Below, in pieces: positions 13,190-44,433 of a DNA stretch of 49,131 nt. Each line of letters opens with the position of its first letter. Position 1 is the stretch's first letter. Source of the stretch: Hassallia byssoidea VB512170 (GTDB lineage: Bacteria; Cyanobacteriota; Cyanobacteriia; Cyanobacteriales; Nostocaceae); the NCBI RefSeq assembly GCF_000817785.2, contig NZ_JTCM02000046.1:1-49131 (forward strand), read 5' to 3'. The translations under genes were made by a program, and so were the position numbers. Under the pieces are notes generated by a model. The model had not been told where the DNA came from, searched no databases, and was given only the letters and a program-made list of their open reading frames with translations.

Positions 13190-13302
13190 CATCCATTTTA
13201 GTAAGAATATTTCTTATTAATTGAGGGTGTAAAATTCTAGCGATCGCCAAATTTGAAAAAATGTAGTGTAAATGTGAATAAAGTGGTAAGCTACTTTGAT
13301 GC

Positions 13303-13421
13303 GATCGGTTCTGATGGAAAGCCATCAGACGCAAGGGGGAAAGTTCGGTGTAAATCCGGCACTGTCCCGCAACTGTGATGAGACGTGGAATCTAGCCTCA
13401 GAGTCAGAATGCCCGCCGATA
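13303..13421 (+). promoter_or_regulatory. Cobalamin (AdoCbl) riboswitch
   Basis: Conserved elements in order: a P2/P3-like hairpin CTGATGG-AAAG-CCATCAG (13311-13328), the core GGTGTAAATCCGGC followed by TGTCCCGCAACTGTGATG, and the B12 box GAGTCAGAATGCCCGCC (13401-13417). ATCGG at 13304-13308 and CCGAT at 13416-13420 can form P1. It lies about 280 nt before a TonB receptor gene and presumably lowers expression of the uptake genes when cobalamin is plentiful. An open frame through it is spurious. Confidence 0.92.
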
Positions 13422-13562
13422 GTAACATTAAACACACATCTGCGAGGTACGGATGATACATCAGAATTTTCGATTTGCAAGCTACAGGTATCAGTTCCAA
13501 TTCAGGCATTACTTCCAATCAAATACTGTTTTGATTTGTTAAGAATTATTCTTATTAGTTAT

Positions 13563-40945: not shown

Positions 40946-42421
40946 ATGACTTCATCTGCTCTTGTAAAAACTGAGTACGAAGCGATTATTGGTCTAGAAA
41001 CCCATTGTCAGCTGAGTACTAACACCAAGATTTTCTCTAATAGTTCTACGGCTTTTGGTGCTGACCCCAATACTAACATTGACCCGGTTTGTATGGGTCT
41101 ACCTGGGGTATTACCCGTACTCAACGAAAAAGTATTAGAATACGCTGTGAAAGCGGGTTTAGCGTTAAATTGCCAAATCGCTAAATATAGCAAGTTTGAC
41201 CGCAAACAGTATTTTTATCCGGATTTACCGAAAAATTACCAAATTTCTCAATACGACTTGCCGATCGCTGAACATGGCTGGTTAGAAATTGAGTTAGTCG
41301 ATGCTGATGGTAATCCAATGCGGAAAAAAATCGGCATCACCCGCTTGCACATGGAAGAAGATGCCGGAAAATTAGTTCATGCGGGAAGCGATCGCCTTAG
41401 TGGTTCTACTTATTCTCTGGTAGACTACAATCGAGCAGGTGTGCCTTTGGTAGAAATTGTCTCCGAACCAGATTTGCGTTCCGGACAAGAAGCTGCTGAA
41501 TATGCTCAAGAATTACGTCGCATTGTCCGCTATATCGGCGTGAGTGATGGTAACATGCAAGAAGGTTCTCTCCGCTGCGATGTCAACATCTCTGTGCGTC
41601 CGATTGGACAAAAAGAGTTTGGCACGAAGGTGGAAATTAAGAATATGAACTCTTTTAACGCCATCCAACGCGCGATAGAATACGAAATTGAACGCCAAAT
41701 AGCCGCAGTAGAAGCAGGCGATCGCATTATTCAAGAAACTCGTCTTTGGGAAGAAACTTCTCAACGCACTATTAGTATGCGCGTTAAAGAAGGCAGCAGC
41801 GATTATCGCTACTTCCCAGAACCAGATTTAGCACCGATTGAGGTAACAAACGAACAATTAGCATCTTGGCGTAGTACACTACCAGAGTTACCAGCAGCAA
41901 AACGCCATCGTTATGAATCTGATTTAGGACTTTCACCTTACGATGCACGAGTGTTGACTGAGGAAACTACTGTTGCTGCGTATTTTGAAGAAGCGATCGC
42001 ACTTGGTGCAAATCCCAAACAAGCTGCTAATTGGATTATGGGCGATATCGCCGCATACCTCAATAAGCAAAAACTCAGCATCACCGAAATTGCCCTTACT
42101 CCTACCAATCTAGCAAAAGTCATCACCCTCATTGAAAAGGGTACCATCGGCAGTAACAAAGCAAAAGAGAAATTACCAGAGTTGCTAGCTGGTAATTCTC
42201 CCGATGAAGTATTCAAAGGTGAAGAAAAAATCTCTGACGCTAGCGTACTCGAACCGATTATAGACCAAATTATCGCCGCCAATCCCAAAGAACTAGAAAA
42301 ATACAAAAGCGGTAAAACCAACCTCAAAGGCTTTTTTGTCGGACAAGTTCTCAAACAAACCGGTGGACGCGCAGATCCAAAACTGACTAACGAATTAGTA
42401 GACCAAAAGTTGAATAACTAG
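40946..42421 (+). CDS. gatB: Aspartyl/glutamyl-tRNA amidotransferase subunit B
   Basis: A 491-residue GatB, which with GatA and GatC turns Glu-tRNAGln and Asp-tRNAAsn into the amide forms. YEAIIGLETHCQLST (10-24), KYSKFDRKQYFYPDLPKNYQ (zinc/ammonia channel region), RLHMEEDAGK, DYNRAGVPLVEIVSEPD and the C-terminal YqeY-like tail (VLKQTGGRADPKLTNELV) are all present. GatA and GatC are not in this window. It is preceded by a short promoter region and followed by repeats. Confidence 0.97.
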   Translation: MTSSALVKTEYEAIIGLETHCQLSTNTKIFSNSSTAFGADPNTNIDPVCMGLPGVLPVLNEKVLEYAVKAGLALNCQIAKYSKFDRKQYFYPDLPKNYQISQYDLPIAEHGWLEIELVDADGNPMRKKIGITRLHMEEDAGKLVHAGSDRLSGSTYSLVDYNRAGVPLVEIVSEPDLRSGQEAAEYAQELRRIVRYIGVSDGNMQEGSLRCDVNISVRPIGQKEFGTKVEIKNMNSFNAIQRAIEYEIERQIAAVEAGDRIIQETRLWEETSQRTISMRVKEGSSDYRYFPEPDLAPIEVTNEQLASWRSTLPELPAAKRHRYESDLGLSPYDARVLTEETTVAAYFEEAIALGANPKQAANWIMGDIAAYLNKQKLSITEIALTPTNLAKVITLIEKGTIGSNKAKEKLPELLAGNSPDEVFKGEEKISDASVLEPIIDQIIAANPKELEKYKSGKTNLKGFFVGQVLKQTGGRADPKLTNELVDQKLNN

Positions 42422-42515
42422 TGAAGGGGACGCTTGGACTGGGGATTGGTGACTGGGGACGCTTGGACTGGAAAAAGAATTATTACCCATTACCCATTCC
42501 CCTTTCCCCTTCATA
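42422..42515. repeat. Direct repeat GGGGACGCTTGGACTGG and CCCATTA/CCCCTTT units
   Basis: GGGACGCTTGGACTGG occurs twice (about 42427 and 42457) after the gatB stop, followed by CCCATTACCCATTCCCC repeats. It is a tandem-repeat spacer before the small-RNA array. Confidence 0.75.
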
Positions 42516-42563
42516 AAAGATGGGTGCAACACCTCAGCCCCAAAATGCTATACTGTGATAATT

Positions 42564-42611
42564 AGATGCACCCTGATGATCTGGAGAGCTGCCCAAGTGG
42601 CTCTCCTTTTT
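42564..42611 (+). ncRNA. Small RNA cassette, copy 1
   Basis: The predicted transcript begins near AGATGCACCCTGATGATCTG and ends in the terminator stem GGAGAGC...GCTCTCC-TTTTT. A -10-like TATACT is at 42550-42555. The -35 box is weaker than in copies 2 and 3. The loop reads TGCCCAAGTG, against CACCCAAGTA in the other copies, with the stem intact. Confidence 0.65.
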
Positions 42612-42675
42612 CATTTTTGTGGTTTTCAGAGAAATTGCGTCGAACTGATTTTCCGAAAAAACTTGCTAGGGGGTA

Positions 42676-42703
42676 TTGCACCTCACCCCAGATGTGGTAT
42701 TAT
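42676..42703 (+). promoter_or_regulatory. Promoter of small RNA copy 2
   Basis: TTGCAC (42676-42681) and TATTAT (42698-42703) are spaced 16 bp, placing a start near 42710-42713. The same pair occurs before copy 3. Confidence 0.7.
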
Positions 42704-42712
42704 ATGTTAAGT

Positions 42713-42760
42713 AGATGCACCCTGATGATCTGGAGAGCCACCCAAGTAGCTCTCCTTTTT
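42713..42760 (+). ncRNA. Small RNA cassette, copy 2
   Basis: AGATGCACCCTGATGATCTG followed by GGAGAGC-CACCCAAGTA-GCTCTCC and TTTTT. It has its own promoter and intrinsic terminator and no reading frame of note. The predicted transcript is about 48 nt. The whole promoter-RNA-terminator cassette matches copy 3 almost exactly. Confidence 0.78.
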
Positions 42761-42900
42761 CGTTTTTATGGTTGCCAAAGAAATTGCTTACACTTATATC
42801 TTGCACATACCACAGTCAACGCAGAAAATAGAAAGTGGTCTAATCGGTGTATGTGTAATTCCAAATCTCAAATCAAAAATAAAAAACTTTTTAGGGGGTA

Positions 42901-42928
42901 TTGCACCTCACCCCAAATGTGGTATTAT
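42901..42928 (+). promoter_or_regulatory. Promoter of small RNA copy 3
   Basis: TTGCAC (42901-42906) and TATTAT (42923-42928), 16-bp spacing, identical to copy 2 apart from one base in the spacer. Confidence 0.7.
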
Positions 42929-42937
42929 ATGTTAAGT

Positions 42938-42985
42938 AGATGCACCCTGATGATCTGGAGAGCCACCCAAGTAGCTCTCCTTTTT
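42938..42985 (+). ncRNA. Small RNA cassette, copy 3
   Basis: Same transcript and terminator as copy 2. It ends about 135 bp before argJ. A 157-codon frame running through the copies is a by-product of the repeats. Confidence 0.78.
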
Positions 42986-43119
42986 CGTTTTTGTCCTAAA
43001 CTTGCCAGCGTTGCAAATAGGCAAGTTATTAATAACTAACAAATTATCACTCTTTGGGTAACGAAGACTTGATATAATCGCCCCTCAAGCAAAGAGTAAT
43101 AGTTGAAGGGATACGAATA

Positions 43120-44433
43120 ATGAATGACTGGCAGGAAATTACTGGTGGTGTGACAGCACCTAGAGGTTATCGGGCAGCAGGAATTACCGCAGGTTTGAAA
43201 CCTTCGGGATTGCCAGATTTGGCTTTGATAGTATCAGATGTAGAGGCGATCGCAGCTGGTGTATTCACCACTTGCCAAGTAAAAGCCGCTTGTGTAGATT
43301 ATTGTCGTCAACGTTTGCAAGCAAAGCATAGCGCTCGTGCTATACTCTGCAACGCGGGACAAGCAAATGCAGCAACAGGTAACGAAGGCTGGTTAGATGC
43401 TTTAGAATGTGCGATGCTATTAGGGCAAGAGCTAAATATGCCTTCAGAATCGATTCTGCTTGCTTCTACAGGTGTAATCGGTCAGAGAATTAAGATGGAA
43501 CCCTTGCGGAGTGGGATTGGTAAGCTGGTGGCAGCATTATCAGAAACAGGTTCAGATGCAGCAGCTGGGGCGATTATTACTACCGATTTAGTTACAAAAT
43601 CAATTGCATTAGAAACAAGTATAGGCGATCGCCCGGTGCGAATTGGTGGCATTGCCAAAGGTTCGGGAATGATTCATCCGAATATGGCAACGATGTTAGC
43701 ATTTGTTACTTGTGATGCCGCAGTTGCACCTACTCTGTGGCAACAAATGTTAAGTCGCGCAGCTGATAGAAGCTTTAATTCAATTACCGTGGATGGTGAT
43801 ACTAGTACCAATGATAGCTTGATAGCGCTTGCCAACGGTCAATCTCGCACCCCAGCAATTACGGAAATGGGTGCAGAAGCGGAAAAATTAGAAGCGATGT
43901 TAACAGCAGTATGTCAGCATTTAGCGAAAGCGATCGCTCGTGATGGTGAAGGTGCAACTTGTCTGATTGAAGTGCAAGTTAGTGGGGCAACCGATGAACA
44001 AGCAGCGAATCAAATCGCTAAAACCATCGCCGGCTCATCTTTAGTTAAGTCTGCCATATTTGGACGCGATCCAAACTGGGGACGCATCGCTGCTGCTGCT
44101 GGACGTGCGGGTATTCCTTTTGAGCAAGAAAACCTGCAAATTAAGTTAGGGGATTTCTTAATGATGGAGAATGGTCAACCTTTAGCTTTTGATCGCAAAG
44201 CAGCGAGTGCTTATTTAAAACAAGCAGCAGCGAATGCTTCTAAACCACAAGATATGATGGCTACGAATATGAGTAATGATTTGTCGGGGGATAGAAGTAC
44301 AATCAAGGCTCAAAGTTTAGATAATCCGGTGATAATTGCAGTTAGCGTTGGTAATGGACACGGTTCGGGTAAAGCTTGGGGTTGTGATTTGAGTTACGAC
44401 TATGTGAAAATTAACGCCGAGTATACAACTTAA
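43120..44433 (+). CDS. argJ: Bifunctional glutamate N-acetyltransferase/ornithine acetyltransferase
   Basis: A 437-residue ArgJ, which transfers acetyl groups in the cyclic arginine pathway and may also start it with acetyl-CoA. The self-cleaving site is KGSGMIHPNMA-T191-MLAF, where Thr191 becomes the nucleophile of the beta chain. Other hallmarks are ILCNAGQANAATG (75-87), STGVIG and FGRDPNWGRIAAAAGRAG. It starts after GAAGGG. The upstream small-RNA array ends about 135 bp before it; a regulatory link is not shown. Confidence 0.96.
   Translation: MNDWQEITGGVTAPRGYRAAGITAGLKPSGLPDLALIVSDVEAIAAGVFTTCQVKAACVDYCRQRLQAKHSARAILCNAGQANAATGNEGWLDALECAMLLGQELNMPSESILLASTGVIGQRIKMEPLRSGIGKLVAALSETGSDAAAGAIITTDLVTKSIALETSIGDRPVRIGGIAKGSGMIHPNMATMLAFVTCDAAVAPTLWQQMLSRAADRSFNSITVDGDTSTNDSLIALANGQSRTPAITEMGAEAEKLEAMLTAVCQHLAKAIARDGEGATCLIEVQVSGATDEQAANQIAKTIAGSSLVKSAIFGRDPNWGRIAAAAGRAGIPFEQENLQIKLGDFLMMENGQPLAFDRKAASAYLKQAAANASKPQDMMATNMSNDLSGDRSTIKAQSLDNPVIIAVSVGNGHGSGKAWGCDLSYDYVKINAEYTT

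Follow-up and report, generated by a model that had tools for sequence, protein, structure and literature searches.

The gap between gatB and argJ in Hassallia byssoidea VB512170 holds three repeated units, and the question raised by this locus is whether they are genes for small RNAs, to which known RNAs they may be related and on which messengers they might act. The window analysed is the whole stretch of 49,131 nucleotides (contig NZ_JTCM02000046.1, forward strand, positions 1 to 49,131).

The units between gatB and argJ and their relation to NsiR1

The gap contains three direct repeats of 112 nt each, at 42507, 42656 and 42881, the first and the last being 71% and 97% identical to the middle one (100%). 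They hold three units of about 51 nt, each with a -10 element, a common 5′ end and a Rho-independent terminator (Table 1). The window contains exactly three occurrences of the 19-mer ATGCACCCTGATGATCTGG, 0.01 being expected, and a 26-mer of the units was found nowhere else in the 7.5-Mb host genome in a search allowing up to three mismatches. The original prediction, made from the letters alone, had described -10 hexamers TATACT or TATTAT, the hexamer TTGCAC at -35 of copies 2 and 3 at a spacing of 16 nt, and a conserved terminator stem with a changed loop, and all of these are present. It was also right as to the three units, but the conserved part starts one or two bases ahead of the AGATGC that it had given as their beginning.

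Table 1. Features of the gatB–argJ region in window coordinates.
Feature	Position	Strand	Basis or remark
gatB	40946-42421	+	Pfam GatB_N, GatB_Yqey; conserved upstream neighbour on the same strand, synteny
Copy 1, degenerate HetR-operator-like palindrome TGGGTGCAACACC	42521-42533	+	8/10 to GGGGTNNNACCCC; fails strict GGGN5CCC
Copy 1, -10 element TATACT	42549-42554	+	Most class A relatives have it at the same offset from the box
Copy 1, predicted sRNA, 51 nt	42561-42611	+	Start inferred from -10 position
Copy 1, box TTAGATGCACCCTGAT	42562-42577	+	
Copy 1, terminator hairpin, then TTTTT	42583-42606	+	Terminator scan, fold
Copy 2, degenerate HetR-operator-like palindrome GGGGTATTGCACC, over the -35	42670-42682	+	Fails strict GGGN5CCC
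Copy 2, -35-like TTGCAC, 16-nt spacer	42676-42681	+	Sequence
Copy 2, -10 element TATTAT	42698-42703	+	Sequence
Copy 2, predicted sRNA	42710-42760	+	Start inferred
Copy 2, box GTAGATGCACCCTGAT	42711-42726	+	
Copy 2, terminator hairpin	42732-42755	+	Repeat, fold
Copy 3, degenerate HetR-operator-like palindrome GGGGTATTGCACC	42895-42907	+	Fails strict GGGN5CCC
Copy 3, -10 element TATTAT	42923-42928	+	Sequence
Copy 3, predicted sRNA	42935-42985	+	Start inferred
Copy 3, box	42936-42951	+	
Copy 3, terminator hairpin	42957-42980	+	Repeat, fold
argJ	43120-44433	+	Pfam ArgJ; downstream neighbour on the same strand, synteny

The folds predicted for the three 53-nt stretches had energies of -20.1, -16.4 and -16.4 kcal/mol (z -3.4, -3.3 and -3.3), and in the window folds the box is unpaired save for its 3′ part. 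A generic terminator scan detected, of the units, only the terminator of copy 1, 1.2 terminators being expected by chance, and a generic promoter scan of the window gave none at the three units. The assignment of the unit promoters therefore rests on comparison with relatives, and transcript starts are predicted near 42561, 42710 and 42935 from the positions of the -10 elements. A 157-aa open reading frame at 42566-43039 runs across all three terminators and was taken as spurious. Right behind gatB a 17-nt direct repeat, GGGGACGCTTGGACTGG, was observed at 42426-42442 and 42455-42471.

A search of Rfam at the gathering cut-offs gave no match at the units; the one match in the window is a cobalamin riboswitch at 13289-13434 (56.5 bits). 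In a permissive search of Rfam, the check that had been proposed, all three copies gave sub-cut-off matches to NsiR1 (RF02399), scoring 25.3, 25.3 and 17.4 bits where the cut-off is 39. Among the eight matches up to E = 10 in 42400-43120, three were NsiR1 and none belonged to any other cyanobacterial family, Yfr1 included. The 5′ end of the units, (G)TAGATGCACCCTGAT, is the 5′ end of NsiR1; the NsiR1 5′ sequence GUAGAUGCACCCUGAU is exact in copies 2 and 3, and copy 1 differs from it at the first base.

Ten places of the host genome score above the NsiR1 cut-off, eight of them in an array on contig C180 and the other two as single homologs at C115:65533-65583 and C79:19383-19440. The C180 array adjoins a CHAT-domain reading frame of 827 codons on the opposite strand, the product of which is taken as HetF; the same arrangement, with the NsiR1 array adjoining hetF, is described in PMC9045159. 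The host therefore has a true NsiR1 array beside hetF, and the triplet of the window, which has the 5′ end of NsiR1, forms a separate second locus. Judged by score, promoter or locus, the predicted RNAs of the window are not members of RF02399. They are like NsiR1 in the first 16 nt, in a length of about 50-60 nt, in having their own promoters and terminators, in tandem copies and in their occurrence in Nostocales, but differ from it in locus (gatB–argJ against hetF), in promoter (TATA-type against DIF1) and in terminator; the DIF1 hexamer TCCGGA near -35 is absent at the three window copies. The kinship to tandem sRNA arrays of Nostocales that had been proposed thus finds support in the NsiR1 5′ end. 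The accompanying statement that the sequence is not NsiR1 holds for a separate branch with another promoter at another locus, but not for the 16 nt at the 5′ end.

Qrr and OmrA/B are multi-copy sibling sRNAs and resemble the units in that several promoters drive RNAs of one seed, their sequences and hosts being unrelated. Yfr1 and Yfr10, described as short RNAs with one conserved motif in otherwise variable sequence (PMC6778093, PMC4734099), are likewise one motif on variable bodies, but the Yfr1 motif CACUCCUCACACC is unrelated to the window box. What is already known comprises NsiR1, its array and one relative in a non-heterocystous genus, a 57-nt NsiR1-like RNA being reported for Limnospira, which has no heterocysts (PMC8400943). 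No description of the gatB-linked branch, of its HetR-like promoter palindrome or of the class-wide 16-nt box was found in the literature searched, supplements and most subscription papers lying outside it (copies may be in Table S3 of PMC4734099).

Distribution of the box, promoter classes and genomic setting

The exact 16-mer GTAGATGCACCCTGAT was found in 205 of 388 genomes of the class, and GATGCACCCTGATGATCTGGAGAG with up to three mismatches in 154 of 388 genomes of the order, the reversed-pattern controls giving 0 in both counts; several families are without any occurrence. At least 116 stretches of named genomes carry the 16-mer followed by a T run. Genera among the stretches listed are Nostoc, Calothrix, Fischerella, Dolichospermum, Microcoleus, Symploca, Leptolyngbya, Spirulina, Okeania, Hydrococcus, Chamaesiphon and Microcystis, and the box is also present in species that never form specialised nitrogen-fixing cells. 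One of the stretches, from a Clostridia record (L141), is without promoter elements and was treated as a chance match. Among copies with promoter and terminator context the box is exact in 260 and has one to three mismatches in 36, a count that tilts to exact copies because an exact match was the basis for fetching the loci. Within the box, AGATGCA hardly varies and the few changes fall mostly outside it, the commonest being C12 to T, mainly in copies adjoining HetF.

Comparison of 287 distinct copies of the 15-mer, from 173 loci, revealed two promoter classes. Class B, defined by a hexamer with at most one mismatch from TCCGGA between -44 and -31, comprises 165 copies, with the hexamer mostly at -38 and TCCGGA exact in 98. 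Class A comprises 117 copies with a TATA-type -10 element, most often at -14, and no TCCGGA-like hexamer; it includes L199, placed by its palindrome, and single copies of the class B arrays L140 and L205. Five copies fit neither class, and the window copies are of the TATA type. The hexamer TCCGGA is the DIF1 motif, and DIF1 promoters are described as requiring HetZ in Anabaena (PMC7377430).

The palindrome GGGGTNNNACCCC is exact in 56 of the 117 class A copies and present with at most two mismatches in 92; among the 100 copies having it with up to three mismatches, it starts at -42 in 81. It was exact in 0/1170 shuffles, no shuffle coming below two mismatches, and it was found within two mismatches in none of the 165 class B copies. 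In many class A promoters of relatives it has the shape of the HetR operator of hetP, GAGGGGTCTAACCCCTC, a 17-bp inverted repeat of which GGGnnnnnCCC is stated to be needed (PMC4192349). The strict form GGGN5CCC occurs in 78/117 class A and 3/165 class B copies. In all three window copies, by contrast with the hetP operator, one half-site is degraded and the strict form is absent, the palindromes having 8/10 bases. The strict form is also absent from several other Nostocales, two Microcystis loci, Hydrococcus, 'Cyanothece' and L014-L024 of one family. Microcystis, Hydrococcus and 'Cyanothece' are usually regarded as unicellular. Since the site is absent in several groups and often degraded within heterocyst formers as well, the idea that the palindrome follows the presence of HetR is put forward here as a hypothesis. 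The HetR-operator-like palindrome over the -35 region of class A, together with the DIF1 promoters of the other branch, suggests that two arms of the HetR cascade may drive RNAs with the same seed.

The two classes differ in their surroundings. gatB and/or argJ are present at 65 of the 94 loci that have class A copies (a total in which L140 and L205 are included) against 1 of 74 class B-only loci, where it should be considered that the loci from the order-wide GATGCACCCTGATGATCTGGAGAG search were fetched with a class A-like pattern and that the flanks are short, so that unlinked loci may be linked further out. For the 114 named loci with copies the corresponding figures are 29/47 for class A against 1/64 for class B, three loci belonging to neither class. 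All 76 class A copies found with gatB lie on the gatB strand, a median of 143 nt separating the first copies from where the match to GatB ends (n = 56), and all 61 found with argJ lie upstream of it on the same strand. The cassette, whose possible absence beside argJ in relatives had been considered in the original prediction, is present with argJ in the same place in many of them. Of the 64 named class B loci, 16 contain HetF or the pair of genes at the other end of the array. The sole class B-only locus with gatB or argJ is L234 of Leptolyngbya sp. SIOISBB, in which argJ is directly followed by a class B copy.

In a scan of 20 loci the NsiR1 cut-off was passed by five non-host class B copies (Symploca L165, Phormidesmis L167, Coleofasciculus L236, L177 and L171) and by four copies with a class A promoter and without gatB or argJ (two in L239, one each in L219 and L213), and by none of the 11 gatB/argJ-linked loci. 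Symploca, Phormidesmis and Coleofasciculus are usually regarded as non-heterocystous.

The terminator stem was examined in 30 class A RNAs, where pairing is kept in 94.1% of cells, against 47-62% in slid versions. Two-sided changes number 17 against 7.7 in shuffles, and the covariation score is 0.306 against 0.235 ± 0.018, a value reached by 0/500 shuffles; two of the five covariation measures lay within the shuffles (pairs changed on both sides, 54/500; further pair types, 123/500). In the best predicted folds of 72 class A RNAs, 809/1152 box bases are unpaired and 343/1152 paired. The earlier proposal of an RNA under selection, with its own promoter and terminator, is supported.

Candidate targets and probable mode of action

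The original prediction had pointed to CTGGAGAG as a string that could act on an mRNA or a ribosome-binding site. Its GGAGAG is the left arm of the terminator stem, and this role is not supported, since the 5′ end is the most conserved part and the candidate target sites are complementary to the 5′ end. Three places of the host genome outside the sRNA genes match the 16-mer with at most two mismatches. At one, the complement, 13 nt of it perfect, stops 12 nt short of the start codon of a gene for a RecQ-type helicase; at another, 49-64 nt upstream of an alkaline/neutral invertase gene, two 7-pair blocks surround two central mismatches, the site of a same-genus relative being more degraded; the third lies away from any gene start. 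These gene names come from our reading of the proteins. The third candidate, an MFS transporter, was chosen not by the box search but through a comparison of GCATCTAC-ATG places between the host and genome G721. The pattern GCATCTACN{4,34}ATG is noisy, with 118 places in the host and 113 in G721; among the 100 matches listed for each, six places are shared, four in coding sequence and two at gene starts, those of the transporter and of a small protein. To this comparison recQ was added by hand, its host place being outside the 100 matches listed.

For each of recQ, the invertase and the transporter, 60 genomes from the family of the host were searched for orthologs, with a match in 59, 58 and 56, respectively, and the 5′ regions of the best 30 loci per gene were compared, 28 remaining after exclusion of the host and the same-genus relative. 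A fully paired GCATCTAC (G-U allowed) was found at the expected place in 9/28 recQ, 20/28 invertase and 18/28 transporter loci, counts that are optimistic because the genomes are related, recQ and the invertase moreover having been picked because the host matches, and orthologs not being independent. None of 300 shuffled motifs reached these counts, the best giving 5, 2 and 6, respectively. In sites with up to two mismatches, transitions that preserve pairing outnumber those that break it by 33 to 8 (p = 0.011); pairing-breaking transversions number 17 over the three genes, 10 of them in recQ. The transporter site lies one base ahead of the GTG/TTG start, and that of the invertase is among the few conserved 5′ blocks, beside the ribosome-binding site and a block upstream. 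The three gene families of relatives thus have conserved sites at the 5′ ends of their mRNAs, with predicted pairing to the box. No target of the alr3234 type was found in the host, which gives a single match to the HetP family model. In the same-genus relative (G303) a 12-nt complement of the box was seen near position 1500 of L275, about 65 nt upstream of a pyruvate kinase-like start.

We consider it probable that the units are paralogous genes for trans-acting antisense sRNAs, forming a gatB/argJ-linked branch of a class-wide superfamily that includes NsiR1. Each unit would be transcribed from its own sigma-70-type promoter and end at its own terminator, giving an RNA of about 51 nt with the 5′ end GUAGAUGCACCCUGAU as its seed. 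The seed would pair, through the core GCAUCUAC, with sites at or near the start codons of several mRNAs, the candidates being those of recQ, the alkaline/neutral invertase and the MFS transporter. Pairing would most likely block translation, by analogy with NsiR1, for which action on hetF by antisense and binding to the start region of alr3234, lowering its expression, are described (PMC9045159). Copy number would set the dose, and the different promoters would perhaps set timing and place. What the data show directly is the sequence and its conservation, the synteny, the two promoter classes, covariation in the terminator and conserved candidate sites; for the window units we infer transcription, pairing, the sign of regulation and HetR control.

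The box begins at the predicted transcription start in both classes, so that selection could act on initiation or on a bound protein, and the box would then be a DNA element or protein-binding site and not an RNA seed. This is unlikely, as the box is common to two promoter classes with different -35 and -10 elements, NsiR1 with the same box is described as acting as RNA (PMC9045159), and at mRNA starts there are conserved sites complementary to it, in which transitions tend to preserve pairing. It is quite unlikely that the units serve their neighbours as leader attenuators or terminators, either by terminating gatB or as tandem leaders whose read-through sets argJ expression. The class A copies found with gatB or argJ do lie on the same strand, after the former and before the latter, but there was no argJ match within the 2.6-5.8 kb of sequence downstream of the copies in several gatB-linked loci, namely L137, L149, L151, L160, L210, L217 and L233. 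Moreover, the same box heads copies with other terminators at hetF and in phage contigs, as well as plasmid copies with other neighbours, and a shared 16-nt 5′ end is not needed by a leader.

The ATG within the box, a few bases past the predicted start, could open a leaderless mini-ORF (ATG CAC CCT GAT..., Met-His-Pro-Asp), but the box shows no surplus of changes at its third codon positions (3, 0 and 3 cases) over those at first and second positions, and TAA stands right behind GAT in 15 class B copies, which makes a peptide product very improbable. Scarcely credible is a mobile repeat devoid of regulatory role: the copies are many and occur also on plasmids and in phage contigs, but the promoter classes share little beyond the 5′ box, the class A terminator stem covaries and many families of the class have copies in the position beside gatB.

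A wider picture may be drawn tentatively, its chances appearing to us somewhat below even, in which NsiR1 would have branched off late, as a form specialised for heterocysts, from an sRNA system that predates these cells. That system would have one conserved 16-nt seed, a core gatB copy under a HetR operator and extra copies under DIF1 promoters that depend on HetZ. In filamentous cyanobacteria that never form heterocysts, the two arms of the HetR cascade would meet on a single post-transcriptional regulon, which takes in recQ, the invertase, a transporter and other genes, and phages and plasmids would carry copies, perhaps tapping the regulon. The conserved sRNA on the gatB side could provide a direct handle on the role of HetR without heterocysts and on the origin of NsiR1, because a HetR-like operator stands ahead of the sRNA in many relatives and is missing in the four named loci from genera usually regarded as unicellular. 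For a seed that varies so little within the class, the data also supply targets that can be tested.

Copies on viral contigs and plasmids

No match was obtained among phage records with the NsiR1 array as a query. Of 37 viral contigs containing the 15-mer, 33 were judged by eye to be chance matches; a viral scan in which a terminator was required gave 14 further contigs, none convincing by eye. Two related viral contigs, L071 (near 8819, minus strand) and L084 (near 3673, plus strand), carry an NsiR1-like cassette of the DIF1 type, with an exact box, a terminator and TCCGGA, which is exact in L084 and has one change in L071; between them they contain terminase, portal and head-protease genes. 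In the putative viral contigs L093 (near 11006) and L069 (near 1640, minus strand), of 74 and 103 kb, a terminator-like hairpin comes after the box.

Two plasmids of Allocoleopsis franciscana PCC 7113 carry a class A cassette with the exact palindrome GGGGTGACACCCC (L556:3001-3099 and L557:3001-3100). Each cassette lies just upstream of a helix-turn-helix gene, which is followed by defence-like genes, with an HmaC-like ATPase on one plasmid and a LeoA-like GTPase together with a type I methyltransferase on the other.
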